Below, in pieces: positions 7,408-30,330 of a stretch of DNA of 64,000 nt. The notes below the pieces were generated by a model. The model was not told the origin of the DNA. It did no database searches and saw nothing but the letters and a program-made list of their open reading frames with translations. A program made the position numbers and the translations under genes. The stretch is taken from positions 62,001-126,000 of the forward strand of contig NZ_RDSK01000013.1 in assembly GCF_003722075.1 (NCBI RefSeq), given 5' to 3'. Each line of letters starts with the position of its first letter. Position 1 is the stretch's first letter. This stretch comes from Methanohalophilus sp. RSK (GTDB lineage Archaea > Halobacteriota > Methanosarcinia > Methanosarcinales > Methanosarcinaceae).

Positions 7408-8547
7408 TTACAAATCTATTCTTTTAATGTTCTTTATTCTTTGATCTAAAGTGGCTCCACATCTGCAGGGTTCATCTATAAGTGTGGCTATGTCACGAGT
7501 TCTATAGCGTATAAGAGGCATGCATTTTCGTCTCAACGTAGTGAATACGAGTTCACCTTCTTCGCCTGGCGGGAGTATTTTCCCTGTTTTTGGATCTATT
7601 ACTTCAACAAGGAAATCTGCATTATTAACATGCATACCATCTTGTTCAGTACATTCGATGGCATTTGCCAGTCCCATCTCAGTCATCCCCCATTGTCTAA
7701 GGGTTTTACATCCCCATATTTCTTCAATCTCTTTTTTCATAAATGCAGTCAGTGGTTCTGAGGAACATATGATTCGTTTTATTCCTAACTCATGAGGATC
7801 TATGCCAAGTTCTTTTATCTGTCTGGATAAGCTGTAAATAAAAGAAGATGTTCCTATAATTACAGTAGTTCCAACCTTTTTCATGGTGGATATTTGACTT
7901 TCTGCATTAAGAGAATCATTTATTACGGAATCCATTCCAGCCAGATCACATGCTTTACTTAAGACAAGACCAGGTTCCCATGTCGCTGTTATAGTAGGAT
8001 ACATTATTTGGAGCGTATCTCCCTCTGAATCCATTCCGGCCATTTTTAAACCGGCCACTACGGAATCTACAATTTCTAGTAGTTCTTCTTGTGTATAAGA
8101 TACTCTTTTTAGGATATTGGTGGTACCTGAAGTGGTAAATTCACGAGCTATGTCTTTTCTTGAAACACACAGAAAATGATAGGGTTTTTCAGCAAGAGCG
8201 ACGGGATCTGTCAATGGTATACTTTCTAAGTCTTCAAGTTTTTGTATGCTGGAAGGGTCAATTCTTTCTTTTTCGTAAAGATCCATATAGTAGGGACTAT
8301 ATTTTGATGCATATTTCAATACTTCACGTAATTTTATAAGTTTATATTTTTCTATATCTTTCCTACTAAGACTATTCGGATTAAGAGTATTTTTCAATTC
8401 ATTGGTTTTTGAGATATCTTTTTTTATTTTGACAATACTCCACTTTTCTAGTGGATTACTGGTATTACTGTCCAATTTTCTGGATTCGAGTTTTCTTTTT
8501 GCGATATTTTGGCGTACAGCATTATTGAATTGCTTTACAATTTGCAT
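7408..8547 (-). CDS. PaaK-type adenylate-forming (acyl-CoA ligase-like) enzyme
   Basis: 379-residue member of the phenylacetate-CoA ligase / coenzyme F390 synthetase family, which activates a carboxylate (or phosphate) as an adenylate. The AMP-binding loop is present as FTTSGTTNILKRV, the adenine motif as RQWGMTEMG, and the hinge region as LIRYRTRDIATL. A strong GGAGGT site precedes ATG 8547. It is the last gene of the minus-strand row with the radical SAM and zinc-ribbon genes, though a terminator-like structure lies between. From memory it resembles the DVU_1553-type ligases found beside similar radical SAM genes in sulfate reducers. The substrate is unknown. Confidence 0.72.
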   Translation of the reverse strand: MQIVKQFNNAVRQNIAKRKLESRKLDSNTSNPLEKWSIVKIKKDISKTNELKNTLNPNSLSRKDIEKYKLIKLREVLKYASKYSPYYMDLYEKERIDPSSIQKLEDLESIPLTDPVALAEKPYHFLCVSRKDIAREFTTSGTTNILKRVSYTQEELLEIVDSVVAGLKMAGMDSEGDTLQIMYPTITATWEPGLVLSKACDLAGMDSVINDSLNAESQISTMKKVGTTVIIGTSSFIYSLSRQIKELGIDPHELGIKRIICSSEPLTAFMKKEIEEIWGCKTLRQWGMTEMGLANAIECTEQDGMHVNNADFLVEVIDPKTGKILPPGEEGELVFTTLRRKCMPLIRYRTRDIATLIDEPCRCGATLDQRIKNIKRIDL

Positions 8548-8620
8548 TACTAAACCTCCAGTTTCATCGAATTGAAGTCAAATGATTGTTGTATTTAAAT
8601 AGATAAAATTGCATTTTAAT

Positions 8621-8685
8621 AAAAAAGGGTGGATATTTAGGTTATTTCTCGGTGATCTGAGGGAAACTGCAGATAATATCCACCC
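8621..8685 (-). terminator. Long stem-loop with T tract between radical SAM and ligase genes
   Basis: On the minus strand an 11-bp perfect stem (GGGTGGATATT against AATATCCACCC, 8675-8685 with 8627-8637) closes a 37-base loop and is followed by six T residues (8626-8621). This has the form of an intrinsic terminator or attenuator. It lies between the stop of the radical SAM gene and the start of the ligase gene, so it could set their relative expression. The long loop could itself fold (TCTC/GAGGGA). Confidence 0.6.
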
Positions 8686-8709
8686 TATAAACGGGAGTTT
8701 ATTAATTGT

Positions 8710-10125
8710 TCATCCTGTATTTCTGTAAAGATATTCACCTTTGCAATTGGTGAGATTGTAGTTGCAGAAGGGAATAAATTTCCCATTCTCGGTCACAACA
8801 TGTATACAACAATTCTCTACCCTTTCTCTCTCGTATGACCAGACATCCTGAAATGCCATCATGGAGATTGTGAGATAGTTATCCTTGCTCATCTCTATAA
8901 AGTCTGCCCAGCCTCCTTCCGAATTGGAGCATGAGGTATCAAGTGAGGTTACATCAATCTGTTTTTCACAGCATGAACCTTTGGCAATAATCTCACCACA
9001 GCATGAACTGTCATCATCTTCCTTTTCTTTCTCAGAACCTTTCCATCTGCCCATAATTGAGTTTTTTGTCTTGCTTGCCACATCGAAGGCTGATTTTGCG
9101 GCTCCAAGAGAAGTATTTGTCAGTGGTATGAATTCCCCATTGTTGACCAGTGTAAGGCAGGTAGTTCCACAATGAGCTGTCGGCATAAGCGAGGGGGTGA
9201 AGTTCTCAACTTTGAGTTGTCCATTTGTCTGATCTTCAATCGCTTCAAGGAGTTCAACTATGGTTATTTTTCCCTCCAGCATCGAAGGAGACCGTCCCGA
9301 ATAAAAGACAGGCTGGAAGTGTACACCTCTGACTGTGGGTACCTTGTTGCTTGCAAATTTTATGATCTTACCAGTTTCATGAAGATTATAATTCTTAGCA
9401 ACCAGAGGCACCAGGACTACACCAATATCGGCTTTTTCACATCTGTTGATAACTTCGGATTTTACATCGAACAGCTTTTTTCCGGTCCTCTGCATATAAA
9501 CATCATCCGATACGCCATCAAATCCAAGATAGATCGAATCAATACCTGCAGAAGCAATCTTATCAAAATATTCCTGATCCTTAGCAATTCTGCGTCCGTT
9601 TGTATTCAGTTCTATATGATCGATTCCCATCTCCCTTCCCATCTTTATGATTTCAGGTAGATCGTCCCTGAGAGTTGGTTCTCCTCCAGAGATTTGGATA
9701 CATGTGGGATCGTTCTGACATTTCTTGACCGTCTCAAACATCTTTCTTATTGTTTCCATGTCAGGATCAAGGCTCTTATCCATAGAAGAATTGGCAAAAC
9801 AATATGTACAGTCCAGGTCACATCTGTCAGTTACCTCTACAACTGCCAGACATGTATCCTGTTTATGGGAGGGGCAAATACCACAATCGAAAGGACAGCC
9901 TTTATCCACATCTGTCAAGGGCGCCTTTACCCTTTTCCGATCTACATCGAAACATTCTTCCATCTTACGGTAATGATCCACATCATTAGAAATAAGAGCT
10001 GTGAAACTTCCGTGGTCATCGCACTCTTTTTTAATGAATACTTTACCGTCCTCAACGTATTTTACACCCTCAATCTTCCTGAGACACTCAGGACAAAGGC
10101 TTTCGACTTTATTTATGATATCCAA
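8710..10125 (-). CDS. Tes/TrsS-like radical SAM protein
   Basis: About 471 residues. The N-terminus has the LCPECL zinc/iron motif and a CDDHGSF segment, then CPFDCGICPSHKQ, then the radical SAM cluster motif CDLDCTYC (C-x3-C-x2-C), followed by ISGGEPTLRDDLPE. The order matches the MJ0619/tetraether-synthase (Tes) and TrsS families. The C-terminal half carries extra cysteines (DDDSSCCGE, GSCCEK) and ends CCIHVV...PFCNYNLTNC. A longer frame begins at TTG 10140, but GGGAGGG at 10132-10138 favours TTG 10125. The neighbours (adenylating ligase, zinc ribbon, UroD methyltransferase) favour a TrsS-like role over lipid synthesis. The reaction is unknown. Confidence 0.72.
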   Translation of the reverse strand: MDIINKVESLCPECLRKIEGVKYVEDGKVFIKKECDDHGSFTALISNDVDHYRKMEECFDVDRKRVKAPLTDVDKGCPFDCGICPSHKQDTCLAVVEVTDRCDLDCTYCFANSSMDKSLDPDMETIRKMFETVKKCQNDPTCIQISGGEPTLRDDLPEIIKMGREMGIDHIELNTNGRRIAKDQEYFDKIASAGIDSIYLGFDGVSDDVYMQRTGKKLFDVKSEVINRCEKADIGVVLVPLVAKNYNLHETGKIIKFASNKVPTVRGVHFQPVFYSGRSPSMLEGKITIVELLEAIEDQTNGQLKVENFTPSLMPTAHCGTTCLTLVNNGEFIPLTNTSLGAAKSAFDVASKTKNSIMGRWKGSEKEKEDDDSSCCGEIIAKGSCCEKQIDVTSLDTSCSNSEGGWADFIEMSKDNYLTISMMAFQDVWSYERERVENCCIHVVTENGKFIPFCNYNLTNCKGEYLYRNTG

Positions 10126-10175
10126 TAGGCTCCCTCCCAAATATTAAATTTTTTACAAATCCCTATCAGCTATTT

Positions 10176-10646
10176 TTATGCTCTCTTCTCTTCCAGGATA
10201 GATTCAGCGGTCTTGAGTGTTTTTGCCACACCATCTGAAACATAGAACTCCTGGCACTTGGGGCATACAATAGCAGGCCCGGCTCTTGTGACTCCCATGT
10301 AGGACATGTCGACATTCCTTTCAAGTGCGGTCTCATTACACTTCTGGCAGATCCACTCACTTTGGTCATCATTTTCAACTTCATGAAGTTCTCCACCGGT
10401 TAGACCATCGATATGCATTTTGTGAGAATAGACATTGTTTAGGTTAATCCCCTCTCCTGATATTGTGTAAACAGCATAGGTGGTCAGATTTTCAGAATCG
10501 TCTTTGGCAATAAAAGTGTCCTCACTCTTATGCTTGAGTTTCTTTCCGTTTGACTCTGCTTTTTCGATGATTTCCTGGATCTCTTCTTTCTTGAATCCTT
10601 CATCTTTTAATAAATTTTGCACTTCTTCTGTCATATTTATATCCAT
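10176..10646 (-). CDS. Small two-CxxC zinc-ribbon/redox protein
   Basis: 156 residues. The N-terminal ~85 residues form a small domain (LLKDEGFKKEEIQEIIEKAE, then YAVYTISGEG), and the C-terminal part is a ribbon with WICQKC and VCPKCQEFYV. From memory this matches the DVU_1557-type proteins that accompany TrsS-like radical SAM genes. It sits between the methyltransferase (49 bases) and the radical SAM gene (about 50 bases), all on the same strand. Start ATG 10646 follows a GAGG site. It could hold a metal or shuttle electrons; function unknown. Confidence 0.6.
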   Translation of the reverse strand: MDINMTEEVQNLLKDEGFKKEEIQEIIEKAESNGKKLKHKSEDTFIAKDDSENLTTYAVYTISGEGINLNNVYSHKMHIDGLTGGELHEVENDDQSEWICQKCNETALERNVDMSYMGVTRAGPAIVCPKCQEFYVSDGVAKTLKTAESILEEKRA

Positions 10647-10695
10647 GAGAATACCTCTTTAATTTGCTATAATTATGTCGCAATGATTTTTCTGC

Positions 10696-11808
10696 TTAGA
10701 ACTTTTCGTATTTTCCGTGGTCTTTTGCAGCTTTTACAATTGCGTGAACATTTGCTGGAGGAGCGTTTGTTGGGCATTCACAAGCAGTTCCTAAAATGAA
10801 ACCTCTGGGACTATCTTTACCTGCAAGGACTTGTTGCTTTGCCTGCTCATAAACCTGTGCGGGTGTACCACGGTCAACTAGTTTTGTATCAACAGTTCCG
10901 AAACATGTACAACGGTCTCCAAAATTTTCCACAAGTTTTGAAGTAGGGAATATTTCTTTTCCATCATACCCAATTTGTACAATAGTGAATGGGCTCATTG
11001 GGGCATCTTTCCACAAATCAAAATCATCACTATGATTTCCACAAAGATGATAATAGATTCCAGGGCCAGCGCCTTCATTTAGAACCTTTCTAACAGCTTT
11101 TGATACAGGATTATAACTGAACCTCTTAATCTGTTCTCTGTCCATCAAATCTCCACTAGCTACCACTGATCCGGTTATCATTACATTGGCTCCATACCTA
11201 TCGGCGGTAACCTTACTCGCATTTACCATATGATCTACAGCTTTTGAACATAGTTTGTCAACTAAATCAGGATCTGTTATCATCCACATGAACACATCTT
11301 CAATAGCCGCCCAATTTGTAGCTAGTTCCATGGTACCAGCTAACTGGGTGATAGGAGCAAACATTTGTGGATATTCTTCTTTACAGGTATCCAATGCCCG
11401 GAAATGTCTTGTAAAACTCGGACCTTTGGCAAGTTCTTCAGGACTTAAGACTTCGAAGTTGTCAACATCCTCTGGAGTTGTGATTGGACGTTTTTGCATA
11501 CCTGGTGGTGCACTTTCTTGAAATTTTAATTCTCCTCCGTAGTCCTCTCCCCAGTAATCTGCATACAGATAGTGTCCCACTGGAGTAACATCGTACAATT
11601 CGCAGGTATGACAGACCATCCTTACAGCTTCTTCTGGATTTTTATAGAAATATCCTGGACTCTTCCTGAACATGCTTGCGGCATGGGATAGGATGATGGG
11701 ATCTACTGTTACTCTTTCTGAAGGCGTATCTGCCCATGGGGTTGTCCATAAATTCCCTGCTTTTTCTAGCCAATCTTGATTTATTGGTGCATAATCTTCT
11801 GCTGGCAT
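10696..11808 (-). CDS. UroD-family cobamide-dependent methyltransferase
   Basis: 370-residue protein of the uroporphyrinogen decarboxylase / MtaA-CmuA superfamily, whose methanogen members move methyl groups between corrinoid proteins and thiols using zinc. Likely zinc ligands are seen in YYHLCGNH (His and Cys) and in GTACECPTN near residue 340. It is longer than typical MtaA (about 340) and its central segment ([18 protein letters not shown]) is more like the broad UroD-type methyltransferases of anaerobic bacteria. AGGTGAT precedes the ATG. It may take the methyl group from, or give it to, the corrinoid protein at 29.3 kb. The substrate cannot be read from sequence. Confidence 0.75.
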
Positions 11809-12242: not shown

Positions 12243-12554
12243 TTAGCGAAATTCACTTTCTCCAAAAGTGTCGTAGTAACGTTTTACTACGGAACCAAGG
12301 TAGTTGGATGTTCTTCTTGAATCAAATTTGGACATGATGTTGTTCAGAGGGAACTCAGTGTCACAGTAAACACATCGAGCCAATTCACATCCGGTAACTG
12401 ATTTTGGACAACCAGTACAGACTTTTGCCCTTGAGTAGAAAAGATTAAATGAATTTCCACATGAAGGACAGGTTACAGGTCTATTTGAATCAAAAAGATT
12501 CTTGTTTACACCGTATCTTTTCATTTCACTTGTCAATCTCTCTTCACGCTTCAT
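12243..12554 (-). CDS. Small cysteine-rich zinc-ribbon protein
   Basis: 103 residues from ATG 12554. Cysteines occur as CPSCG, CTGC with a following C, and CVYCD, giving two likely zinc or iron-sulfur knuckles. No family is recognised. The frame can be opened at TTG 12566, but that codon lies in the end of the inserted IS element, so ATG 12554 is the better start. The gene points into the methyltransferase row and its natural promoter has probably been displaced by the IS. Confidence 0.55.
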   Translation of the reverse strand: MKREERLTSEMKRYGVNKNLFDSNRPVTCPSCGNSFNLFYSRAKVCTGCPKSVTGCELARCVYCDTEFPLNNIMSKFDSRRTSNYLGSVVKRYYDTFGESEFR

Positions 12555-12564
12555 GTCAAAAATC

Positions 12565-13510
12565 AATGGCTCTTAATTACTTAAACTTTATCGATACAGC
12601 TATGTCTGTAGCTGGAAGATCTCATCTTCTAATCTACAGTTGTAAGTATTCCAAACGAAAATATACCCAACATCAGTTACTGGCATTGGTATTGATCAAA
12701 GAGTATATGAATACGGACTATAGAGACGTTGTTGAACTTGTTGATTTAATGGAAGGGGTCCAATCCAAGATTGGTATAAAGCACGTACCTCACTTCACAA
12801 CATTACACAAATTTATCAATAGACTATCTTCATTCTATTTCAATAGCTTACTATACCAAACTCTGAAACTCTTCTATTCACACGGTGAAAAAATACCTCT
12901 GGTTGCTATTGATTCAAGTGGATTTACAGGAGGACATTGTAGTTACTATTATTCTGTGAGAACAGGAAAGAAAAGACGGTCGTATCTGAAAACAAGTATA
13001 ACCGTTGACGTTGAGAAGTTCATTGTAACTGGTTTTAAGATTTCAGGTAAGCCTGTGCATGATGCAAAGCATGCATCGACATTACTTAGACAATGTCACA
13101 AAAGGAGAAAAGCTGAGTGTTATCTGATGGATAAAGGATATGATTCTGAGAAGATACATACTCTAATCAATGAAGAATTGAAAGCAGAAGCCATCATACC
13201 TGTAAGATGCAGAAAAAGGAAAAGAATCAAGGGAAAATGTTCCAGATTGAATATCTGGAACTCCCATTAAATCTGTGATTTAATGGTATACCGTCGAAAA
13301 ATGAGAGATGAATTTGATGAAGATATCTACCATTATAGAAACCTGGTAGAGACGATGTTTTCTGTTTTGAAAAGGAAATATAGAGAAGAACTGAGAGCAA
13401 CAAAATACAGAAATCAGAAAAGAGGTCAAGTTCAAATTATTAATTCATAATATAGACAGGGCAATCTCTGTTTCAATAATTATTCAAATGAGGATTTCTA
13501 CAGAGCCATT
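12565..13510 (+). mobile_element. IS5/IS4-like insertion sequence (interrupted copy)
   Basis: A 946-bp unit bounded by the 9-bp inverted repeats AATGGCTCT (12565-12573) and AGAGCCATT (13502-13510). It contains one DDE transposase frame that is broken twice. No clear target duplication flanks it. A decayed relative lies at 31062-31288. It sits 11 bases upstream of the zinc-ribbon gene's ATG. Confidence 0.6.
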
Positions 13511-13519
13511 AGTAAAATG
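12566..13519 (+). pseudogene. DDE transposase, interrupted by a 51-nt insert and a frameshift
   Basis: From ATG 12566 the frame reads a DDE transposase with VAIDSSGFTGGH (first Asp) and YLMDKGYDSEKI (second Asp). After KRIKGK, 51 bases (13238-13288) with TAA at 13268-13270 intervene, and the same frame resumes at YRRKMRDEFDED and continues to the glutamate motif YHYRNLVETMFSVLKRKY. Near 13424 the frame slips by one, after which [18 protein letters not shown] completes the usual tail. Without readthrough it cannot make an active enzyme. Confidence 0.75.
13238..13288 (+). repeat. Double-hairpin element, copy A, inside the transposase
   Basis: Two adjacent perfect hairpins: TTCCAGAT-TGAAT-ATCTGGAA (13240-13260) and CCATTAAATC-TGT-GATTTAATGG (13264-13286). 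The 51-nt length keeps the transposase frame on both sides. A second copy with about five changes is at 31240-31288 on the other strand. Confidence 0.7.
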
Positions 13520-13673
13520 ATAGCAAATTCATATTTCCTTCCCCTTTCCAAGATTCCTTTTGATGATCTTTTCGATGTACTGTGAACACATGGCATATGT
13601 ATTACAAGATTCATAATTTGGACTGAAATCATCTTGTTGATAATAATATTAACGTCGATTAATTACTTAAAGT

Positions 13674-13684
13674 TATTATAAATA
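13674..13684 (+). promoter_or_regulatory. TATA-like box before the BioB-like operon
   Basis: TTATTATAAATA lies about 95 bases upstream of the BioB-like gene in an otherwise gene-free 250-base spacer. It is the best archaeal TATA match there, and the following operon has no other obvious promoter. Confidence 0.35.
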
Positions 13685-13777
13685 CTTCCAGTCGAATTTT
13701 GATATAGAGACATTTAAGGGCTTGTATTGTAAGCTGAATAGGGAACATAAATCTTAATGTAAAAAAAGGTGAGTGTT

Positions 13778-14767
13778 TTGTCAAATACAGATTTTATTAT
13801 GGATGCAAAAGAAAGAGCGCTAAATGGCCAAAAACTGGACAGGGAGAGTATTATAGGCCTGCTTGAGATAGATCCTGATTCCCGGGATGCGGAATTACTT
13901 GGGAAAGCTGCAAGGGAGGTTGCTGGATATGTGACCGGGAATCGGGCCAGTGTATGGGCATCTATAGGAGTTGACTATAGGAAATGTGCCATGAGCTGCA
14001 ATTTTTGTTCATTCGGGCAGAAATGGGGATTAGTGGAACAGGAAAGTGAAAGGAGCACAGAAGAGATAATAGGCCTAATCGATAATTTTGTATCCCGGGG
14101 TGCAAGATGGGTAACATTGCGCACAACTCAGTTCTATGGATTCGACAAGCTCATCCAGCTGATACGGGATATCCGTTCATCTGTTTCTGGAGACTATGAG
14201 ATCGTTGTTAATACCGGTGAGTTTGATGATGAAAAAGCAATGACCCTTGCAGATGCCCGGGCTCAGATGGTCTATCACACACTTAGGCTACGCGAAGGTA
14301 CGGATACGAAGTTCAAACCTGAAGAAAGACTTGCAACATTAGGCTGTGTCAAGTTGTCACCTCTGGGTCTTGCCCATCTGGTCGAACCTGTAGGCATCGA
14401 ACATACGAATGAGGAGATTGCGGATGTTTTCATGAAAGGAATGGAACATAATGCCATTCTCTCCGGTGTCATGGCAAGGGTGCCTTTGCCAGGCACTCCT
14501 CTTGCCGACCGTGCCCAAATATCTGAAAAGAGACTGGCTCAGATAGTGGCAGTGACACGTCTGGCATCCGGCCACCAGGCACCTAATATCTGTGTACATC
14601 CACCTTCACCACTTGCAATACAATGGGGCGCCAATATTGTTGTTGTTGAGACGGGTGCAATTCCAAGGGACACCGGGGACTGTGATCGTGAGTGGCATGA
14701 ATTCGATATGAACACCGCAAAAGACCGGTTCACGAGTGCAGGCTATACCTTTTTCTCAGGGGAGTGA
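13778..14767 (+). CDS. BioB-like radical SAM protein
   Basis: 329 residues from TTG 13778, chosen because AGGTGA lies just upstream; GTG 13769 overlaps that site. The cluster motif CAMSCNFC (C-x3-C-x2-C) and overall length place it with biotin-synthase-like radical SAM enzymes (BioB, HydE, PylB, HmdB group), but I cannot assign one: PylB has a different cluster region and substrate loop. The stop overlaps the next gene as ATGA-type coupling, so it is co-translated with an ABC importer. The pairing suggests the enzyme makes or modifies a small molecule related to what the importer brings in. Substrate unknown. Confidence 0.65.
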   Translation: MSNTDFIMDAKERALNGQKLDRESIIGLLEIDPDSRDAELLGKAAREVAGYVTGNRASVWASIGVDYRKCAMSCNFCSFGQKWGLVEQESERSTEEIIGLIDNFVSRGARWVTLRTTQFYGFDKLIQLIRDIRSSVSGDYEIVVNTGEFDDEKAMTLADARAQMVYHTLRLREGTDTKFKPEERLATLGCVKLSPLGLAHLVEPVGIEHTNEEIADVFMKGMEHNAILSGVMARVPLPGTPLADRAQISEKRLAQIVAVTRLASGHQAPNICVHPPSPLAIQWGANIVVVETGAIPRDTGDCDREWHEFDMNTAKDRFTSAGYTFFSGE

Positions 14768-15744
14768 CATGGATGAACAAACTATTTTTTGTACTGTGCA
14801 TATTTCTGGTGCTGGTCATTTCAGGCTGTACAGGTGATGCCCCTGAGCAAAGTCAGACATCCACAGTAGGAACCTGGAAGACAGCGCAAACTATACAGCC
14901 ATTCCTATATCAGGACTATATCACAGATGACCACTTTGTAGAGGTTCTTCCTTTCACCAATCCGGGAGACCAGAAATCAGCTCTGCTTGCAGGGGACCTT
15001 GAAATGACCGGCACAACCATAGCCCTTGCGATAACAGCTGCATCAAGGGGTGAACCTGTTGTCGTTGTGAGTGCTCTTTGCAACAAATGTTCGGCTATTG
15101 TGGTAAGAGAAGATTCGGATATCCTGGAACCTGCTGACCTGAAAGGAAAGACTATCGCATATGTACCTGGAACCATGCATCATGTACTTCTTCTTGAAAC
15201 ACTGAAGAATGCAGGACTTGACCCTGAAAAAGATGTAACTCTTCAGAGGATTGATTTCTTTGATATGGGACAGGCACTTTCGCAGGGTAAGGTAGATGCT
15301 TTCTGCAGTGGTGAACCATATCCTTCCCTGGCAATAGCAGATGGCTATGGACGGGTACTAAGTTATCCGTATTACAAAGAGGGTGTCGGAACGATCAATG
15401 CAGGAATGTTGACCACAAAAGACCAGATCGAGAACAACAGGGAAGAGATACAGGAACTGGTTACAGCCCATGCAAGGGCCACAGAATATTTGAAAGATAA
15501 TCCGGAGGAATGGCTCAGCATGTCATCCGAATTTGGTACAGACCCGCAGGTCCTGGATATTGCTTCGGGTAATATGGAACTTGCATGGAACATGGACGAG
15601 GACTATGTTCAACAAGCAGAAAACCTGGCAAAGAGGATGAAAGAACTGGGAATGATAGAAGAGGTCCCGGACATGGATACTTTATTTGACCTGAGTTTTG
15701 TGGAACAGGCACGTAAAGATCTGGATGAAAGTGAGAATGTATAA
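14764..15744 (+). CDS. ABC importer substrate-binding lipoprotein (TauA/THI5-like)
   Basis: 326 residues with a signal peptide ending in the lipobox VISGC. The mature part follows the NMT1/THI5/TauA fold: a ligand-side TGTTIAL segment, DLKGKTIAYVPGTMHHVLL, and a hinge near GKVDAFCSGEPYPSLA. Such proteins bind sulfonates, nitrate, pyrimidine precursors or other small anions. It overlaps the BioB-like gene by 4 bases and the permease frame by at least 8. The ligand is unknown; a thiamine-pyrimidine precursor is one possibility. Confidence 0.72.
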   Translation: MTWMNKLFFVLCIFLVLVISGCTGDAPEQSQTSTVGTWKTAQTIQPFLYQDYITDDHFVEVLPFTNPGDQKSALLAGDLEMTGTTIALAITAASRGEPVVVVSALCNKCSAIVVREDSDILEPADLKGKTIAYVPGTMHHVLLLETLKNAGLDPEKDVTLQRIDFFDMGQALSQGKVDAFCSGEPYPSLAIADGYGRVLSYPYYKEGVGTINAGMLTTKDQIENNREEIQELVTAHARATEYLKDNPEEWLSMSSEFGTDPQVLDIASGNMELAWNMDEDYVQQAENLAKRMKELGMIEEVPDMDTLFDLSFVEQARKDLDESENV

Positions 15745-16531
15745 GCATATCGATAAACTGGAGATTGCAGGTTTCATACTCCCTGTAACATTGTTCACTG
15801 TATGGTATGTTGCAACAATGGAGGATGCTGTACCTGCATATCTGCTCCCTTCTCCCTGGGACCTGATACGCACCGCCATCGATTTTGCCATTGCAAGTGA
15901 GGGCCTGACACCCTATTCAGGGGAGCTTCTCGTGCATTCCATAGCCAGCATAGGGAGGGTGGTAACAGGTTTTGGACTGGCTGCAGCGATTGGCCTCCCA
16001 CTCGGCTTTCTTTCAGGGCGCATAGCTCTGGCGAAGAGTTCTCTGGATCCGACTGTGCATCTCATTCGTATAGTGCCTGGAATAGGCTGGCTTCCCCTTG
16101 CAATGGTATGGTTCGGGGTAGGGGAGAGTACAACCTTATTTCTCATTTCCCTTGCATCTTTTTTCCCCATCTATGTCAATGCTGCCCAGGGTGCATCATC
16201 AGTATCCCCAATGCTTGTACGTGCTGGAAGAATGCTGGGAGCAAGTGAACTGAGAATATTCACTACGGTTATAATTCCGGCAGCGATGCCCTCAACTGTA
16301 GCCGGGCTTCGACTGGGTTTAGGATTATCATGGGCGTATCTGGTATTGGGTGAGCTAACAGGAGTGACACATGGACTGGGTGCGGTCATGATGGATGCAC
16401 GTATGTTAGGTAATGTTGAGATGATACTTGTCTCGATGATCTTCATCGGATTGTTCGGTCGCATAAGTGACCTGTTACTACTGGGTTCCTTCAGGAGATT
16501 GAATCTATTAAAAGGGAGCTATGAAGAATGA
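15737..16531 (+). CDS. ABC importer permease (TauC/SsuC-like)
   Basis: 264 residues from ATG 15737; ATG 15725 is an alternative and the frame is open to 15698. About six membrane helices are visible, beginning with AGFILPVTLFTVWYV. The coupling-loop sequence GASELRIFTTVIIPAAMPS is typical of BPD_transp_1 permeases. It is flanked in an overlapping row by the binding protein and the ATPase. Confidence 0.78.
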   Translation: MYKHIDKLEIAGFILPVTLFTVWYVATMEDAVPAYLLPSPWDLIRTAIDFAIASEGLTPYSGELLVHSIASIGRVVTGFGLAAAIGLPLGFLSGRIALAKSSLDPTVHLIRIVPGIGWLPLAMVWFGVGESTTLFLISLASFFPIYVNAAQGASSVSPMLVRAGRMLGASELRIFTTVIIPAAMPSTVAGLRLGLGLSWAYLVLGELTGVTHGLGAVMMDARMLGNVEMILVSMIFIGLFGRISDLLLLGSFRRLNLLKGSYEE

Positions 16532-17292
16532 GAAAAGCAAAACTATCAGTAAGTGATATCAATAAGAGTTTTTACATGCCTGGTGAAAATATTTCTCTTC
16601 AGGTGTTAGAGAAAATAGATTTTGAGATTCAGGAAGGTGAGTTCGTAAGTATTCTGGGTCCAAGTGGATGTGGCAAATCGACCTTTTTGAACATACTTGC
16701 CGGTTTTGAAAATGTGGACTGTGGAAATGCGGTATGCTGTGGGGAATCAATAACAGGTCCTTCCCCGGAAAGAGCAGTGGTCTTCCAATCTCCGGTCCTG
16801 TTCCCATGGCTTGATGTAAAGGAAAATATCATGTACGGCCTGAAACAAGTGGGCAAAAGAAAAAAGGATGCAGAACAACTTGCTTCAGAATATCTAAAGG
16901 CTGTCGGGCTTGAGGGTTTCGGCAACTATTATCCTTCCCAGTTATCGGGGGGTATGCAACAAAGGGTTTCCCTTATCCGCTCACTGGTACTGGGTCCCAA
17001 GGTCCTGTTGATGGATGAACCCTTTGCAGCACTGGATGCCCAGACACGTTACAGTATGCAGCAATTGTTGCTCCAGCTCTGGGAGAACAACAGGCAGACC
17101 ATCGTTTTCATTACACATGATGTTGAAGAGGCCCTTTTGTTATCAGATCGTATCTGTATCATGAGTAGGCGACCCGGTAGAATTATCGAGGAGATATCAG
17201 TTCCTTTTGAACGTCCACGCACTATCTCACTTGCCGGATCAGAGGACTTCTCAATTCTAAAAAGTCGTATACTCGGCAAATTACTGACATGA
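16528..17292 (+). CDS. ABC importer ATPase (TauB/SsuB-like)
   Basis: 254 residues with Walker A GPSGCGKST, signature LSGGMQQRVSLIRS, Walker B VLLMDEPFAALD and switch histidine FITHDVEEAL. Starts within the permease stop (ATGA overlap). It energises the importer; family is nitrate/sulfonate/bicarbonate type. Confidence 0.85.
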   Translation: MRKAKLSVSDINKSFYMPGENISLQVLEKIDFEIQEGEFVSILGPSGCGKSTFLNILAGFENVDCGNAVCCGESITGPSPERAVVFQSPVLFPWLDVKENIMYGLKQVGKRKKDAEQLASEYLKAVGLEGFGNYYPSQLSGGMQQRVSLIRSLVLGPKVLLMDEPFAALDAQTRYSMQQLLLQLWENNRQTIVFITHDVEEALLLSDRICIMSRRPGRIIEEISVPFERPRTISLAGSEDFSILKSRILGKLLT

Positions 17293-17487: not shown

Positions 17488-19656
17488 ATGAATGATGAAA
17501 AATTGTTTGAGTCAACTAATATTGGTAAATGTAACTTAAATAACCGCATAGTAATGGCTCCGATTGGAAATATTAACATGGCAGATCCCACAGGTAGGCC
17601 CACAGACAAAATGATTGATTTTTTTGTAGAAAGAGCACAAGGTGGAACAGGTCTTTTGATTACTGGATTGGTTCCTGTTTCTTTTGGTATTGATCCAACA
17701 CTTGATGCAGAATGTAACAATACATATTTCCCTCGTATTGATGGTGCATCAAGGACACGCCTTTCTGGATGGAGAGATCTCTGCTCAGCAGTACGGCCCT
17801 ATGGCTCAAAGATATTTATCCAGTTATCTGCAGGACTTGGACGGGTTGGATCTCCTGAAGTTGCTTTGAAAGGGAAGGTACCCAAGTCTTCTTCCTTGAA
17901 TTGGAATTTTTATATTCCTCAAGTTCCTCATTTGCCTCTTTCTGATCGCAAAATCAAAAAGATTGTGAAGAATTTCGGTCAATGTGCAATCAATGCAAAG
18001 GTGTCAGGGTTTGACGGTATACATCTGCATGGTCATGAAGGGTATCTGATGGATCAATTGACATCTTATCCCTGGAATAGAAGGAAATTTGGGAGATATA
18101 AAAACAGATTCCAATTCGGAATAGATGTTGTAAAGGAAATTAAAGAAAGATGTGGTGAAAATTTTCCCGTTATTTACAGGATTGATTTAACTCAGGGACT
18201 TCAGGAAAGTTATGGGGATTATATATTCAAAAAAAAATTTAAAAACAAAGAAAGAAAAATAGAAGAAGGGTTGATGTTTTGTAAGGCTTTATATGAAGCT
18301 GGTGTTGATGCATTTGATGTCGATAAAGGTTGCTATGATAACTGGTTTTGGCCTCATCCTCCTTCCTATTTCGATGACATTGTGTATGTGGAAGAAATAG
18401 CAGGAAGGGTAAAGAAATTTTTCAATGATGAAAGTATTTCTGCTCCTGTGATCGCAGTGGGGAAAATAGGGAAACCTGAAAAGGCGAAAGAAATTCTTGC
18501 TAATGGATGGGCTGATCTCATTATGCTTGGAAGGCCTCTTTTAGCAGATCCACACTGGCCCTCAAAGGTAAAGGCACGTAGGGATAAGGAAATAATTCAT
18601 TGTATTGGTGACCATGAAGGTTGCATTGAATCTTTCAAAAAAGGGGGACATCCTTGTTGCTCAGTAAATCCTTACACTGGTTTTGAGGATCGAAAGAAAT
18701 TATTAATAGCTGACATTTCTAAGAGAGTTGCTATTATAGGTGCAGGGCCCGCAGGATGTGAGGCTGCAATAACTGCTCATAACAGAGGGCATAAAGTAAT
18801 CCTTTTTGAAAAAACGGCTAATATTGGTGGTCAACTCCATCTGGCAGCTAAAATGGCTATAAAACACGATATTAAACGATATTTAGACAACCTTAAACAT
18901 CGTCTTAATTTACTTCAAGCAGAAGGTCTCGAAATCAGACTAAATACTGAAATAAATAATGATCACATAAAAAATGATTTTGATGTTATTATATGTTGCA
19001 ATGGATCAAAACCCACACTTCCTTCTATAGAGGGAATGGAATCAACAAATTATTCAGAAGCTAGAGATTTCTTAGCACGTGACATGCAATTACCTGATAA
19101 TGTAAAGAATGTACTTATCATTGGAGGTGGTTCCATCGGTTGTGAAATTGGTTATACCCTGTCCCTTGAAAAAAACTTGAATGTTACAATTGTGGGTAAA
19201 AACAAAGAACTTATGCCTTCTACCTCTCTACCTAACAGGTCGCAAATGTTGTGGCTGATGATGGGAAAAGGGTCTTGTTCGGGCAAAAAAGAAGATGTCA
19301 TCAAAAAGCCAATTCGTGCCTATACTTCTTCCAAAATTCTAAACATCTCAGGAAAATTGGTCCGTATAGCAGCGAATAAGGATAGAGAGGGTCCTTATAC
19401 ACCCTGGAAAAGTTTGATCCCTGAAAATATATCCAATCCTTTTGAGAAAAACTTAAAGAAAACGAATACAGAGATAATAAAAACATATGCTGATTATATT
19501 ATTTTTGCTACCGGTGGAGAAGCAGATGATTTTCTATATAGGAGACTTGCAGAGAAAAATATATCTGCTAATGTATATTGTGTAGGTGACTCAAAAGAGA
19601 TTGGAGGGGTTTGGGAAGCGGTTACTTCTTCAAATGAAATAGCTCGTAACATTTGA
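17488..19656 (+). CDS. NADH:flavin oxidoreductase of the 2,4-dienoyl-CoA reductase / BaiCD type
   Basis: 722 residues. Residues 1-~365 are an old-yellow-enzyme barrel (NNRIVMAPIGNIN at the FMN site, GFDGIHLHGHEGYLMDQL catalytic region). A [4Fe-4S] set follows (C372, C379, C390/C391), and then FAD/NAD domains with GAGPAGCEAAIT and IIGGGSIGCEIGY. Such enzymes reduce activated C=C bonds. ATG 17488 follows GGTGAGG. The next genes, a membrane protein, aldehyde dehydrogenase and SDR, read the same way and may form one pathway. Relatives are mostly bacterial, so transfer is plausible. Confidence 0.78.
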   Translation: MNDEKLFESTNIGKCNLNNRIVMAPIGNINMADPTGRPTDKMIDFFVERAQGGTGLLITGLVPVSFGIDPTLDAECNNTYFPRIDGASRTRLSGWRDLCSAVRPYGSKIFIQLSAGLGRVGSPEVALKGKVPKSSSLNWNFYIPQVPHLPLSDRKIKKIVKNFGQCAINAKVSGFDGIHLHGHEGYLMDQLTSYPWNRRKFGRYKNRFQFGIDVVKEIKERCGENFPVIYRIDLTQGLQESYGDYIFKKKFKNKERKIEEGLMFCKALYEAGVDAFDVDKGCYDNWFWPHPPSYFDDIVYVEEIAGRVKKFFNDESISAPVIAVGKIGKPEKAKEILANGWADLIMLGRPLLADPHWPSKVKARRDKEIIHCIGDHEGCIESFKKGGHPCCSVNPYTGFEDRKKLLIADISKRVAIIGAGPAGCEAAITAHNRGHKVILFEKTANIGGQLHLAAKMAIKHDIKRYLDNLKHRLNLLQAEGLEIRLNTEINNDHIKNDFDVIICCNGSKPTLPSIEGMESTNYSEARDFLARDMQLPDNVKNVLIIGGGSIGCEIGYTLSLEKNLNVTIVGKNKELMPSTSLPNRSQMLWLMMGKGSCSGKKEDVIKKPIRAYTSSKILNISGKLVRIAANKDREGPYTPWKSLIPENISNPFEKNLKKTNTEIIKTYADYIIFATGGEADDFLYRRLAEKNISANVYCVGDSKEIGGVWEAVTSSNEIARNI

Positions 19657-19827: not shown

Positions 19828-20637
19828 ATGCTAAATCAAGAGACTCTCCCTCCAACGACTTTAAAGTTAATAGTTGAAAACAAAAGTAAAGCATTGATCA
19901 ACAATATTTGGTATTTTTTCTTTTTCATGCTTTTTGTAATCATAGGTATATTATTGTTCTACAGGTGGGCAATGGATGAAATATTGCCTTTAACAATACT
20001 CTCATTTTTGTGGATAATGTTCTGGAGTAACAGTGAACGAAAGGGACAAATTCTTCTTATAATTGCTTCTGTTTTCGGGTATTTTCATGAATTATTAGGA
20101 GTGATATATGGATATTTCACCTATCTTGGGGGTGTAATCGGCAATGTTCCAATATGGATCTTGCCAGGTTATGGTGCAATCTTCTGGTCTTCTTATAACC
20201 TTTGGCATGTATTTGAACTTAGGTATTCAAAGTCACAATGGTTTCCTGTTGTCAATTATTTCATTCCTGTAAGCCTTACTATTTTGTTAGTTTTTGATTT
20301 CTTTTTTTTTGATTTAGCACAAAATCCAATTGCAATAATGGTTAAGTTTTCCCTTGCATTCTTACTATTCAAAAATTTCAAAGAGTTGAGACTTGCATAT
20401 TTTGTGGGTTTTTTTACAGTACTTACTGAATTCAGTGGAGAAATTCTGGGAACATGGTATCATCCAGATTTTTCTCTCCTTTCTCTAATGACCGGCTATG
20501 TCTTTTTGTTGTGGATTTGCATCACTATAGCAGACAGTATCGATGGGGTAAAAAAATGGGGAGTTGTGGAAGTTATAGCTGCTTCTTTACTCACTTTATA
20601 TTACATTGTATCAATGGCAGGGATATTTTCTATATAA
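19828..20637 (+). CDS. Polytopic membrane protein of unknown function
   Basis: 269 residues with about seven or eight hydrophobic helices, including YFFFFMLFVIIGILLFY, FIPVSLTILLVFDFFFFD and a C-terminal VIAASLLTLYYIVSM. Conserved-looking loop motifs are GYGAIFWSSYNLWH and GEILGTWYHPDF. I recognise no family. No clear ribosome site precedes it, so it may be leaderless. Its position among redox enzymes of lipid-like substrates suggests a membrane-linked or isoprenoid role, but that is inference. Confidence 0.6.
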   Translation: MLNQETLPPTTLKLIVENKSKALINNIWYFFFFMLFVIIGILLFYRWAMDEILPLTILSFLWIMFWSNSERKGQILLIIASVFGYFHELLGVIYGYFTYLGGVIGNVPIWILPGYGAIFWSSYNLWHVFELRYSKSQWFPVVNYFIPVSLTILLVFDFFFFDLAQNPIAIMVKFSLAFLLFKNFKELRLAYFVGFFTVLTEFSGEILGTWYHPDFSLLSLMTGYVFLLWICITIADSIDGVKKWGVVEVIAASLLTLYYIVSMAGIFSI

Positions 20638-20674
20638 ATTAATATAATTTAAAAATTACTAAAAGTCGATATAT

Positions 20675-22096
20675 ATGAACCAAAGTATACAACAGGAAAT
20701 TCAAAGAATATTTAAGATCCAACAAAGTGGTTCTTCAAAAATAAATCACACTAATGAGGAAGAACGCATTGAACTTCTGATGCGCATAGATAAATATCTT
20801 AATAATTCACACAATCGGCAAAATCTCTATGGTGCCCTATATAGAGATCTTCATAAGCCAGAAGTAGAAGCAATAGCAACTGAAATAGGAATTGTTCAAT
20901 CCCACATATCATATGTTTGCAGGCAGCTGAAAAACTGGATGAAACCTAAATATGTGCCTTCTCCACTTCCTCTGGTAGGTACAAAATCATCTATTCATTA
21001 TGAGTCGAGAGGTGTTGTGCTTATAATTTCTCCATGGAACTATCCTTTCAATCTCTCCATAGTACCCCTGATCTATGCTATTGCAGCTGGCAACTCAGTA
21101 ATAATCAAGCCAAGTGAAATTTCTATCAATACATCATCATATATAAAGCATATGATATCTAATATTTTTGATGAAAGTGAAGTAGCAGTATTTGAAGGAG
21201 ATAGCAAAGTCGCCCAAGAATTACTGGATAAACCTTTTAATCATATATTTTTCACGGGTAGTCCTGAGGTTGGAAAAATAGTTATGTCCAAGGCTGCCCA
21301 ACACCTTACAAGTGTAACATTGGAACTTGGAGGTAAATCTCCTGCAATTGTAGATGAAACAGCTGATGTTAAAAAAATCGCTAGAAAGGCTGCATGGGCT
21401 AAATCAATAAATAATGGACAAACATGTATATCTCCTGATTATCTCATTTTGCAGGAATCCATTTTTGATGAATTCATAGACGAATACAGAAAAGCAATCA
21501 AAGAATTTTATGATACCGATGGATCTGGAATTGCAAAATCCCCTGACTATTGCCGTATAATTAACAAGCAGCATTTTCAAAGACTCAACAATCTTTTCGA
21601 TGATGCACTCGACAAGGGTGCTCTTGTCCTATTAGGGGGTGAATTTGATGAAAATGATAGATATGTATCCCCAACGCTTCTTTATAACATGTCTGAGGAA
21701 ATGAATATTATGAACGAGGAAGTGTTTGGTCCCCTCCTTCCAGTTTTGGCATACCGAGATAAAAGCCAAGCAGTGGAAATAATCAGAAAAAGACCAAAAC
21801 CACTCACACTTTACATTGCAAGTAATAGTTCATTGAGTATAGATTATTTCATAAAGGAAACCTCAGCAGGAGGGACAGTTATCAATGATTACATGCTAGG
21901 GTATAGCAATCCAAACTTGCCTTTTGGGGGGGTAAATAACAGTGGGATAGGTAAATCCTTTGGCTTCAGGGGTTTCAGGGAATTTTCCAATGAGCGCAGT
22001 GTTATACATCGCAGGTGGGGTTCCTTAAGTTTATTGTATCCACCGTATTCAAAAAAAACATTGTGGGTTATACAAAAAATGTATAGGTTTTTTTGA
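20675..22096 (+). CDS. Aldehyde dehydrogenase (fatty-aldehyde/class 3 type)
   Basis: 473 residues. The NAD-binding loop (FFTGSPEVGKIVM), the catalytic glutamate in TLELGGKSP (E217) and the catalytic cysteine in NNGQTCISP (C251) are all present, so it should oxidise aldehydes to acids. The hydrophobic, aromatic C-terminal tail (LYPPYSKKTLWVI) is reminiscent of membrane-associated class 3 enzymes that act on long-chain aldehydes. It lies between the membrane protein and the SDR gene on the same strand. Confidence 0.82.
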   Translation: MNQSIQQEIQRIFKIQQSGSSKINHTNEEERIELLMRIDKYLNNSHNRQNLYGALYRDLHKPEVEAIATEIGIVQSHISYVCRQLKNWMKPKYVPSPLPLVGTKSSIHYESRGVVLIISPWNYPFNLSIVPLIYAIAAGNSVIIKPSEISINTSSYIKHMISNIFDESEVAVFEGDSKVAQELLDKPFNHIFFTGSPEVGKIVMSKAAQHLTSVTLELGGKSPAIVDETADVKKIARKAAWAKSINNGQTCISPDYLILQESIFDEFIDEYRKAIKEFYDTDGSGIAKSPDYCRIINKQHFQRLNNLFDDALDKGALVLLGGEFDENDRYVSPTLLYNMSEEMNIMNEEVFGPLLPVLAYRDKSQAVEIIRKRPKPLTLYIASNSSLSIDYFIKETSAGGTVINDYMLGYSNPNLPFGGVNNSGIGKSFGFRGFREFSNERSVIHRRWGSLSLLYPPYSKKTLWVIQKMYRFF

Positions 22097-22117
22097 AATA
22101 TATGAGGTTTGGTGCCA

Positions 22118-22924
22118 ATGATTCAAAATGAACAAAAAACTGTGATTATAACTGGGGGTTCCAGTGGAATTGGGCTAGAGCTAGCCAAATTATTTGCAAT
22201 GGATGGTTACAGATTGATACTAGTAGCTCAACCACGAGTAGAACTTGAGAATGCTAGAACATATTTACAGAGATTATATCCAAAATCGGAGATTTTATTG
22301 AAGCAAATTGACCTTGCAAAGCCCCTTGCTGCAAATGAAGTTTATGCTTTTACTCAGGAAAGAGGGCTATTTGTAGATGTGTTGGTAAACTGTGCAGGTT
22401 TTGGTACTTTTGGTTTTGTTAATGAGATTGGTTTAGAAAAAGAACTTTCGATGTTACAACTTCATGTTTGTACCTTATACCATATCACACGTCTTTATTT
22501 GTCTGATATGGTGAAAAATGACATGGGTTATATAATAAATCTATCCTCTATATCTGCCTTCCAACCCAACCCAAATATGGCAACTTACGGAGCGAGTAAA
22601 AGTTTTGTATTAAATTTCAGCCGTGCTTTAAACTACGAACTCAATGAACGCAAATCCAGTGTAAAAATCCTTGCAGTATGCCCTACGGCAGTTAAAGGAA
22701 CGGCTTTTAAAAAAACTGCAAATATGGAAGGCACCAACACATTCAATACATGGATGACTACAACGGCAAATGTTGTGGCCCAGGATACTTACAAAGCAAT
22801 GTTATGTGGCAAAGAGATACTAATTCCAATGAGAAGGTTTTTTATTATTCATAAAATAATAAACATGTTGCCTACAAAATGGTTAATGAATATTGCCAGA
22901 GGTCAATTAAAGGAAAAATGCTGA
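22118..22924 (+). CDS. Short-chain dehydrogenase/reductase (classical SDR)
   Basis: 268 residues from ATG 22118 (GTG 22112 is also possible after the GAGG at 22103). The cofactor motif is TGGSSGIGLELA and the catalytic set is S (INLSSISAF) plus YGASK. It resembles 3-ketoacyl/retinol-type SDRs. It closes the reductase-dehydrogenase cassette, where one might expect alcohol, aldehyde and enoyl chemistry on the same compound. Confidence 0.78.
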   Translation: MIQNEQKTVIITGGSSGIGLELAKLFAMDGYRLILVAQPRVELENARTYLQRLYPKSEILLKQIDLAKPLAANEVYAFTQERGLFVDVLVNCAGFGTFGFVNEIGLEKELSMLQLHVCTLYHITRLYLSDMVKNDMGYIINLSSISAFQPNPNMATYGASKSFVLNFSRALNYELNERKSSVKILAVCPTAVKGTAFKKTANMEGTNTFNTWMTTTANVVAQDTYKAMLCGKEILIPMRRFFIIHKIINMLPTKWLMNIARGQLKEKC

Positions 22925-23028: not shown

Positions 23029-23715
23029 ATGAAATTTGTATTGATTCCTGCTGGTGAATTTTATATGGGTTCATTATCAGTAGATAACAAATGGTACAGG
23101 AACGAAAAGTCTGTGCATAAAGTGAACATAAAAAATCCTTTTTATCTTGGTAAATACTTGGTTACACAAAAGCAATGGATCAATTTAATGGACAAAAATC
23201 CATCCAAATTCATTGGTCATGACAGACCTGTAGAAAAAGTTTCATGGGATGATATACAGAATTTCATCGAGAAATTAAATGAAATGGAAGATACTGTTAA
23301 ATATCGTCTTCCGTCTGAGGCTGAATGGGAGTATGCCTGTAGAGCAGGTACCAGCACAAGATATTCTTTTGGTAACGACGAATCAAAGCTTGATAAATAT
23401 GGCTATTATGGCAGTTTAAATTTTGGTGCTCAACCTGTTGGCCAAAAATAGCCAAATCCTATGGGCTTGTACGACATGCACGGAAATGTTTGGGAATGGG
23501 TTCAGGATCTATATGTAGATAACTATGATCAATCTTCAGTAAATGGCAATGTCCGGCAGGAAAATGACCATACTAATAAATTAATGAGGGTCCTTCGTGG
23601 TGGTAGTTGGCAAACATCTGCTGCAGGATGTCGATGTGCAAGTCGTTCTTATTATCCACAAATTTCCTGTCGCAACAGCAGTCGCATAGGTTTACGTCTG
23701 TTAAAGGAGATATAA
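23029..23715 (+). CDS. Formylglycine-generating-enzyme-like protein with in-frame TAG
   Basis: 228 residues if TAG (23449-23451, residue 141) is read. The first part has MKFVLIPAGEFYMGS and RLPSEAEWEYACRAGTSTRY; after the TAG the same frame continues PNPMGLYDMHGNVWEWVQ and ends with the family core VLRGGSW and RIGLRL. The family usually reads GQKKPNPWGLYDMHGN, so the TAG replaces a lysine. The cysteine region is GCRCASRS. Upstream codons (YTNSIG) also belong to the family but no good start is found; ATA 22978 after GGTGG stands where a methionine is expected. It is either a pyrrolysine protein or a decaying gene. Confidence 0.65.
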
Positions 23716-23915: not shown

Positions 23916-24701
23916 TTAATCAACAAGTTCTGCTTTTTCTTTATAGTGAGAAAACAATTCTAATCCCCACTGTTTTGCACTTTCTTCAAAACTAATTACT
24001 TTTTTATGATCAAATACCCCACCTTTGCTGAAGAAAGCAAGAAGCAATAAGTCATCAGTTACTGAAAGAGCTCCCTGTTTCACGTCATTGTCATCATATA
24101 TATATAAATTTGAATTTTTTGAGTTTTTCACTATATTATATTGCTCTGCAAATTCGTCTTTGAATCTTTCATAAACGGCTCTTGTGAGCATTAGGTCAAA
24201 TTTCACTCCTCTATCTGCCAGATATTTGTAGTTGCAAGGGCAAGATGGACAAAAATATGAGTAAAAAGTATGCACATGTGTGGTTTTATTAAAACTGGTC
24301 AAAAGTTCTTCAGGAGGTTCAAATAAATGACTTAAATCAGGCTCATGTATAGTTACGTCTCCAAGTTCCCCTATTCTGTCAAGTAGTCTTTCAGGTATCG
24401 AACTTAAATCCCTGTTTTCCCAATAATCTTTATTTTCTTCTACAACATTCAATGTTTCTACAAGGGGTCTTATTTTTTTAAGTATAATTTTTCCGATATA
24501 TGTTAGTTTATATTCGTCATCTATTTGTTCAATAAGACCTTGCTCAAGAAGGATTTTTATCTGAGCCATAATTGCACTAGTAGTCCCTGTAAGTGAATCT
24601 TTAATGTCATCAATAGAAGTAGGCCCATTACTCACTAACATCAAAAGAATACTTTTTCTTTTTTCAGACAAAAAGACCGTTCCTATCAATTCATTTGTCA
24701 T
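23916..24701 (-). CDS. Msr-type winged-helix transcriptional regulator
   Basis: 261 residues. The N-terminal ~80 residues form a winged helix (KRKSILLMLVSNGPTSIDDI, LLEQGLIEQIDDEYKLT). The remainder matches the DUF1724/FilR1-type domain of methanogen regulators: ERLLDRIGELGDV and KFDLMLTRAVYERF. In Methanosarcina, Msr proteins of this type activate genes for methanol and methylthiol methyltransferases. It is the third gene of a same-strand row behind the activase and the sensor kinase, 58 bases from the latter. The CPSCPC insertion (near residue 157) could bind metal and is unusual. Confidence 0.8.
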   Translation of the reverse strand: MTNELIGTVFLSEKRKSILLMLVSNGPTSIDDIKDSLTGTTSAIMAQIKILLEQGLIEQIDDEYKLTYIGKIILKKIRPLVETLNVVEENKDYWENRDLSSIPERLLDRIGELGDVTIHEPDLSHLFEPPEELLTSFNKTTHVHTFYSYFCPSCPCNYKYLADRGVKFDLMLTRAVYERFKDEFAEQYNIVKNSKNSNLYIYDDNDVKQGALSVTDDLLLLAFFSKGGVFDHKKVISFEESAKQWGLELFSHYKEKAELVD

Positions 24702-30206: not shown

Positions 30207-30330
30207 TACACTCCTTCCTTCTTAAATTTGATAAATGTAATTGGCTAACACATAATGTTCATTGTATGGGATTCGATTTTGTTTTTCATAATTCAATATA
30301 TAGTTTTGCTATTTGTTAATAGGCGATAAA

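Follow-up and report, generated by a model that had tools for sequence, protein, structure and literature searches.

A Four-Gene Operon Containing a TrsS-Like Radical SAM Enzyme as the Possible Core of a Corrinoid Methyl-Transfer Island in Methanohalophilus sp. RSK

What compound is handled by a row of genes that combines methyl transfer, radical chemistry and carboxylate activation? The question is raised by positions 7408-11808, on the reverse strand, of a 64,000-nucleotide stretch of Methanohalophilus sp. RSK (contig NZ_RDSK01000013.1, positions 62,001 to 126,000), which was analyzed as a whole and is called the window below. A preliminary description of this operon had proposed a corrinoid-dependent system that activates or demethylates an unrecognised substrate. 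The corrinoid dependence was well supported by our analysis, while the activation or demethylation of a substrate is something that we infer. The operon lies in an island that probably serves an unrecognised methylated substrate, most likely a methyl-sulfur compound, and we favor, with a confidence just short of even, the reading that the island is an accessory one for corrinoid methyl transfer, that its substrate is a methylated sulfur compound and that the operon encodes its central enzymes.

Organization of the Operon and Classification of Its Products

The four open reading frames (ORFs) of the operon were all found where the preliminary description had placed them, and the assignments made there agreed with Pfam and NCBIfam. 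They follow one another in the order UroD, zinc ribbon, radical S-adenosylmethionine (SAM) protein and ligase, with intergenic gaps of 49, 35 and 162 bases along the direction of transcription:

10696..11808, reverse strand: UroD-superfamily zinc methyltransferase of 370 amino acids, proposed as a substrate:corrinoid methyltransferase (MT1-like) from the Pfam URO-D match (118 bits), the zinc ligands and a homolog in genome G144 that adjoins a corrinoid gene
10176..10646, reverse strand: two-domain zinc-ribbon protein, proposed as an electron-transfer or docking partner (Pfam DUF7479, 62 bits; NCBIfam; invariant cysteines)
8710..10140, reverse strand: TrsS-like radical SAM enzyme of 476 amino acids with a TTG start (NCBIfam TrsS; Pfam Radical_SAM, 88 bits, and HMPTM zinc ribbon, 63 bits; cluster motifs; tree)
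7408..8547, reverse strand: DVU_1553-like ligase of 379 amino acids, adenylate-forming and of the PaaK type but lacking the C-terminal lid domain (Pfam AMP-binding, 51 bits; NCBIfam)

The resemblance of three of these proteins to TrsS, DVU_1553 and DVU_1557, which the preliminary description had pointed out, proved to be right, with the proteins of the window lying just below the curated cut-offs. The radical SAM protein scored 481.3 bits against TrsS (NF045646, cut-off 490) and 386 bits against Tes (cut-off 450), the ligase 286 bits against DVU_1553 (NF045666, cut-off 300), and the zinc ribbon 36 bits against DVU_1557 (NF045645, cut-off 60). The corresponding scores in other Methanosarcinaceae were 474-486, 261-277 and 24-44 bits, and the hadesarchaeal TrsS orthologs reached 547 and 541 bits, above the TrsS cut-off. 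By these scores, the members in Methanosarcinaceae make up one consistent branch that lies narrowly outside every curated model. With 74 bits against a cut-off of 235, the UroD protein is distantly related to the MtaA/MtbA/CmuA family (TIGR01463). No selenocysteine codon interrupted the TrsS ORF of the window.

The adenylation domain of the ligase aligned with PaaK (4R1L), and the protein ends after the hinge in all complete members of the 25 that were compared. The missing lid domain normally bears the catalytic lysine for adenylation, and because it is absent from all complete copies, we regard the identification as a strict coenzyme A ligase as doubtful. By analogy with LuxE, the enzyme may hand an acyl group to a protein, or it may form an adenylate together with a partner. 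A tblastn search of plasmids with the ligase returned ordinary PaaK matches. In the zinc-ribbon protein, the N-terminal approximately 80 residues resemble the C-terminus of NF045663 (diclust_near_Sec), a companion family, and the C-terminal part is a DVU_1557/DUF7479 CxxC-CxxC domain with invariant C100, C103, C128 and C131. The joining of these parts in one polypeptide suggests that the two bacterial proteins interact.

Comparison of TrsS with Tetraether Synthase

The closest structure to TrsS in the PDB was that of Tes (7TOL; 315 bits), which holds a rubredoxin-like iron, three [4Fe-4S] clusters and a labile Met439, and whose Tyr459 is strictly conserved across 1,000 archaeal homologs (PMC9433317). 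In our alignment TrsS kept all four metal sites and Met439, with the columns conserved in 25-26 of 26 sequences; the motifs comprise a rubredoxin C-x2-C-x20-C-x2-H, an N-terminal cluster site (C73/C77/C80/His), the radical SAM CX3CX2C and a C-terminal cluster site with Met439. The position of Tyr459, in contrast, was occupied by valine in 26/26 TrsS sequences and by tyrosine in every Tes paralog examined, and the segment behind the barrel was a cysteine-rich or short loop instead of part of the lipid-binding region of Tes. By our reading, the exchanged segment would correspond to the second lipid pocket of Tes. The 26 TrsS sequences formed a clade distinct from Tes with a support of 99/97, in line with the higher score against the TrsS model.

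A proven role of the radical SAM protein in lipid synthesis would have spoken against the preliminary description. We excluded a Tes-type role for TrsS because of the valine at position 459 and because the genome of the window carries a separate Tes paralog with the tyrosine; the score below the Tes cut-off agrees with this exclusion. With its conserved sites, TrsS retains the machinery by which Tes makes a carbon-sulfur intermediate at the C-terminal cluster, and it may use that machinery for forming or cleaving a C-S or C-C bond.

Genes for a TrsS-like radical SAM protein paired with a SAM-methyltransferase were also observed on haloarchaeal and Mycolicibacterium plasmids (L087, L088 and L090), near peroxiredoxin-, deiodinase-, DsrE-, AhpD- or TauE-like genes; neither a UroD nor a corrinoid gene stood alongside at these loci.

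Affiliation of the Corrinoid Protein and of UroD

The corrinoid protein, RamA-like activase and DUF5714 protein described earlier for the right arm of the window were all present. The tree and the bit scores placed the first of these among methyl-sulfur corrinoid proteins:

29243..29929, forward strand: corrinoid protein of the MtsD/MtsF/MtsH/MtpC (methyl-sulfur) clade

The island corrinoids clustered with MtsD, MtsF, MtsH and MtpC with a support of 100/99, apart from the methylamine and methanol corrinoid proteins MtmC, MtbC, MttC and MtaC, and forcing alternative groupings cost 11 log-likelihood units. MtsD-type domains scored 261-283 bits against the corrinoid protein of the window, whereas the methylamine types reached at most 165 and the methanol types at most 119. 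Its nearest relatives, island orthologs aside, were the corrinoid domains of fused proteins of approximately 640 residues, which in genome G092 correspond to MtsD, MtsF and MtsH. The gene layout of this genome suggests that it is M. acetivorans: a free-standing corrinoid gene is followed by UroD, major facilitator superfamily and regulator genes, matching the mtpCAP-msrH locus. The functions of MtsDFH and MtpCAP in M. acetivorans have been described (PMC7374477). FilR1-type regulator genes occur near mtsF, mtsH and mtpCAP in this genome, and likewise near the island. Methoxylated, methylthiolated and aromatic substrates had all been suggested for the operon; because the corrinoid phylogeny and the regulator type both point to methylated sulfur, we narrow these options in that direction.

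The putative zinc ligands of UroD, H254, C256 and C343 (H-x-C ... C), were invariant in 24/24 sequences and equal to those of MtbA and MtaA. The UroD homolog in G144, with 40% identity, is encoded directly beside a corrinoid gene whose product is basal to the clade of the island corrinoid. Free-standing corrinoid orthologs (above 300 bits) were confined to island-positive genomes.

Two further arrangements of such genes were noted. In the genome of the window, contig 15 holds another pair of UroD and corrinoid genes, which resembles mtpCA and is accompanied by a FilR1 regulator (L189, 5704-7440), and a Hadarchaeum gene (L133, 6252-8009) encodes a fusion of an N-terminal MtbA-like and a C-terminal corrinoid domain, the order of MtsD reversed.

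Distribution of the Operon among Genomes

The occurrence of the operon was surveyed in 112 Methanosarcinaceae genomes, of which 24 were TrsS-positive and 88 were not. UroD was found in 23 of the 24 positives, a contig end cutting the gene in the remaining one, and in no genome without TrsS; in a 25th genome (G076), TrsS itself is cut by a contig edge. As far as contig ends permit, the four-gene order was invariant in 24/24 positives, so that the grouping is not a matter of chance. The co-occurrence that the preliminary description had asked about was borne out: in positive genomes the four families travel together, and also with the corrinoid protein, DUF5714 and other genes of the right arm. 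DUF5714 was present in 24/24 TrsS-positive and 6/88 negative genomes, and the family of the membrane protein encoded from position 19828 in 24/24 and 3/88 (Fisher p about 1e-19 to 1e-21, with shared ancestry ignored). An 89-residue DUF5714 match (G080:C1:765506-765772) and a lone gene of the membrane protein family (G057:C14:31256-31930), both in TrsS-negative genomes, are perhaps remnants of a lost island.

Only one of the eight genomes of the genus of the window was positive, and the trait is therefore patchy; carriers include Methanolobus and Methanococcoides seepicolus. The zinc-ribbon, UroD, TrsS and ligase families recur in Hadesarchaea, two of which have TrsS orthologs with 43-44% identity, and among 393 genomes drawn from the phylum, only one outside Methanosarcinaceae had the UroD family. 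A scan of genome contigs with one query protein gave archaeal matches only.

Genes of the Larger Island

The genes at 12243-31056 belong to the same island as the operon. Besides the corrinoid gene, they are as follows:

12243..12566, reverse strand: small zinc-ribbon protein, 107 amino acids; adjoins the zinc-ribbon and UroD genes in Hadesarchaea and is divergent from the OYE gene in Methanosarcinaceae
13769..14767, forward strand: PylB/BioB-like radical SAM protein; in several genomes its gene comes immediately after that of the ligase or MduS
14764..17292, forward strand: ATP-binding cassette (ABC) importer with SsuA/NMT1-type binding protein, permease and ATPase; operon-linked in about nine genomes
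17488..19656, forward strand: OYE-family flavin/iron-sulfur/pyridine-nucleotide oxidoreductase, 722 amino acids (profile and neighbourhoods)
19828..20637, forward strand: membrane protein, family not recognised (co-occurrence with TrsS)
20675..22096, forward strand: class-3 aldehyde dehydrogenase, ALDH3 (profile and neighbourhoods)
22109..22924, forward strand: short-chain alcohol dehydrogenase, SDR (profile and neighbourhoods)
23029..23715, forward strand: FGE-sulfatase-domain protein with one in-frame TAG; the islands of G070, G076 and G077 contain FGE as well
23916..24701, reverse strand: FilR1/Msr-type transcriptional regulator (profile and neighbourhoods)
26525..28150, reverse strand: RamA corrinoid reductive activase (TIGR04270, 715 bits, over the cut-off of 500)
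30313..31056, forward strand: DUF5714 cysteine-rich protein, relative of MbdU (profile and co-occurrence)

In the neighbourhoods of all positives, the operon usually stood behind a FilR1-type regulator gene and was followed on its 3' side by one of three arrangements: an aquaporin gene, a gene for an MduS-like SAM methyltransferase, or the genes of an ABC importer, in some cases joined by the PylB-like radical SAM gene. A second module consists of the 12243-family zinc ribbon, divergent from OYE, and then corrinoid, MtbA, membrane protein, ALDH3, SDR and DUF5714 genes; at least 13 genomes had its operon from corrinoid to DUF5714 in full or almost in full, and RamA and the FGE-domain gene lay near it where seen. 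The window holds all of these island components except MtbA, MduS and aquaporin, and an MtbA-like gene is located elsewhere in the genome. The GC content of the island was 0.34-0.43, against 0.44 in the flanks. AlphaFold models of the membrane protein and the DUF5714 protein were poor, with mean pLDDT values of 47 and 50, respectively.

The in-frame TAG at 23449-23451 splits the FGE-domain gene (context VGQK-TAG-PNPMG) and, in a pyrrolysine-using family, may be read as pyrrolysine or be a nonsense mutation. An IS5-type transposase gene (12449-13270) separates the operon side of the island from its ABC side and overlaps the 5' end of the zinc-ribbon ORF at 12243.

Proposed Pathway and Alternative Explanations

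Under the methyl-sulfur reading, an exogenous R-S-CH3 compound would be handled by the importer (ABC here, aquaporin or ABC in relatives) and the FilR1/Msr-type regulators. The SDR and ALDH3 might then oxidise an alcohol end to the aldehyde and the acid, for example methionol to methional to methylthiopropionate or similar. By way of a zinc-bound thiolate, UroD would transfer the S-methyl group of a thioether or thiol to the Co(I) form of the corrinoid protein, kept reduced by RamA, and an MtbA-type enzyme, encoded within the island in at least 13 relatives and elsewhere in this genome, would pass it to coenzyme M and on to methane. The lidless ligase could activate the carboxylate as an adenylate or a protein-bound acyl group, while TrsS would abstract hydrogen from an unactivated skeleton carbon and, at its C-terminal cluster, form or cleave a C-S or C-C bond; the zinc ribbon, OYE and DUF5714 proteins would be redox or sulfur partners. 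That this amounts to a route of methanogenesis not recognised before, in which TrsS and the lidless ligase process a methyl-sulfur compound and a new UroD family transfers its methyl group to a dedicated corrinoid protein, seems to us possible but doubtful.

Several points weigh against a methyl-sulfur role. MtbA is a methylamine-type coenzyme M methyltransferase, the known methyl-sulfur systems to our knowledge do without a radical SAM enzyme or ligase, and the bacterial TrsS/DVU group is found in non-methanogens. Approximately unbiased (AU) tests against grouping with the amine or methanol corrinoids were borderline (p 0.051 and 0.049). UroD scored 15-35 bits against the Mts, Mtp and MtbA types and is not close to any methyl-sulfur methyltransferase, so that its substrate need not follow the ancestry of the corrinoid protein.

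The main rival is biosynthesis, which we consider rather unlikely. The island would then make a small sulfur-containing cofactor or secondary metabolite, with TrsS, the ligase and the zinc ribbon acting as in the bacterial TrsS/DVU_1553/DVU_1557 group, and UroD would replace the SAM-dependent methyltransferase of the bacterial clusters by placing a corrinoid-borne methyl group on a product thiol. It is favored by the SAM methyltransferase genes directly 3' of the TrsS-like genes in haloarchaea and Mycolicibacterium, the MduS-like gene adjoining the ligase gene in some island copies, and the Hadesarchaea, in which no corrinoid gene adjoins the conserved core; the importers, MtbA, ALDH, SDR, regulators and patchy spread, however, resemble peripheral substrate use more than cofactor making. 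A methylated arsenic or selenium substrate, with the aquaporin as a metalloid channel and the DUF5714/MbdU-like protein as a metal binder, is distinctly unlikely. The aquaporin gene does lie directly 3' of the ligase gene in many genomes, relatives of MduS and of MbdU (a metal-binding double selenoprotein) are present, and methylotrophic methanogens demethylate dimethylarsenate (PMC10579292), but no arsenic marker (arsM above cut-off, arsB or acr3) turned up in those island genes that were scanned, and the ALDH, SDR and ligase would be left without explanation.

Demethylation of a quaternary amine or a methoxy-aromatic compound, with choline-like or vanillyl-like alcohols as the substrates of the SDR and ALDH, would suit the MtbA-type MT2 and RamA of the methylamine kind as well as the place of known O-demethylases in the UroD superfamily (PMC10418091); the position of the island corrinoid in the methyl-sulfur clade makes it improbable. 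We give least credence, and very little, to the idea that TrsS is a second Tes-like enzyme that modifies membrane lipids and that the ligase, the ALDH3 (fatty aldehyde type) and the membrane protein act on lipids too. The PDB match of TrsS to Tes and the oxidation of fatty aldehydes by ALDH3 relatives are outweighed by the tyrosine-to-valine exchange, the replaced pocket segment and the Tes paralog described above, and the corrinoid protein, MtbA and RamA would have no explanation.

Comparison with Known Systems

Methylated sulfur compounds are substrates for the methane that is produced in marine and brackish sediments. Methanolobus degrade dimethyl sulfide with genomes that lack mtsA and mtsB, and unknown methylsulfide methyltransferases were left possible (PMC10762971). 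If our reading is true, the island could supply the methyltransferase sought in Methanolobus strains that convert dimethyl sulfide to methane in the absence of MtsA/MtsB, although dimethyl sulfide itself is not certain as the substrate, because the island also occurs in Methanococcoides.

The nearest known systems are MtpCAP-MsrH and MtsD/MtsF/MtsH of Methanosarcina acetivorans (PMC7374477), which share with the island the corrinoid clade, a UroD-type zinc methyltransferase, a FilR1/Msr-type regulator and a transporter nearby. The island UroD is of a different, divergent family, and the island adds the radical SAM enzyme, ligase, zinc ribbons, OYE, ALDH, SDR and DUF5714; it was not found in the M. 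acetivorans genome (G092). Type 1 mlp clusters likewise combine UroD-type Mlps with a corrinoid protein and a Ram activase, with a proposed methyl-sulfur or selenide role, but their component families differ and the text of the paper names no radical SAM or ligase partners (PMC10418091). The methoxy-aromatic MtoABCD system of Methermicoccus (PMC8630106) has the same logic of corrinoid, activase and MT1, whereas MtoA passes the methyl group to tetrahydromethanopterin and the system includes neither a radical SAM enzyme nor a ligase. TrsS shares its four metallocofactor motifs, including the labile Met439, with Tes/GDGT-MAS (MJ0619) and differs from it in Tyr459, the second lipid pocket segment and its gene partners.

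Three of the four operon proteins match the models of the TrsS/DVU_1553/DVU_1557 group, while UroD and corrinoid partners were not among the DVU families named in the preliminary description. TrsS is credited to Haft and Tolstoy 2025 in a review (PMC13188914), and our literature search found no account of the function of DVU1551-1558. Systems for corrinoid methyl transfer have been described, and so have the TrsS/DVU families; no account of the two in combination was found. If the methyl-sulfur reading holds, the TrsS/DVU group would gain its first pathway. With its list of genes defined, the island is a candidate that has yet to be studied. It links corrinoid methyl transfer to three uncharacterised families, TrsS, DVU_1553 and DVU_1557, whose function thereby becomes directly testable in cultivable methanogens.

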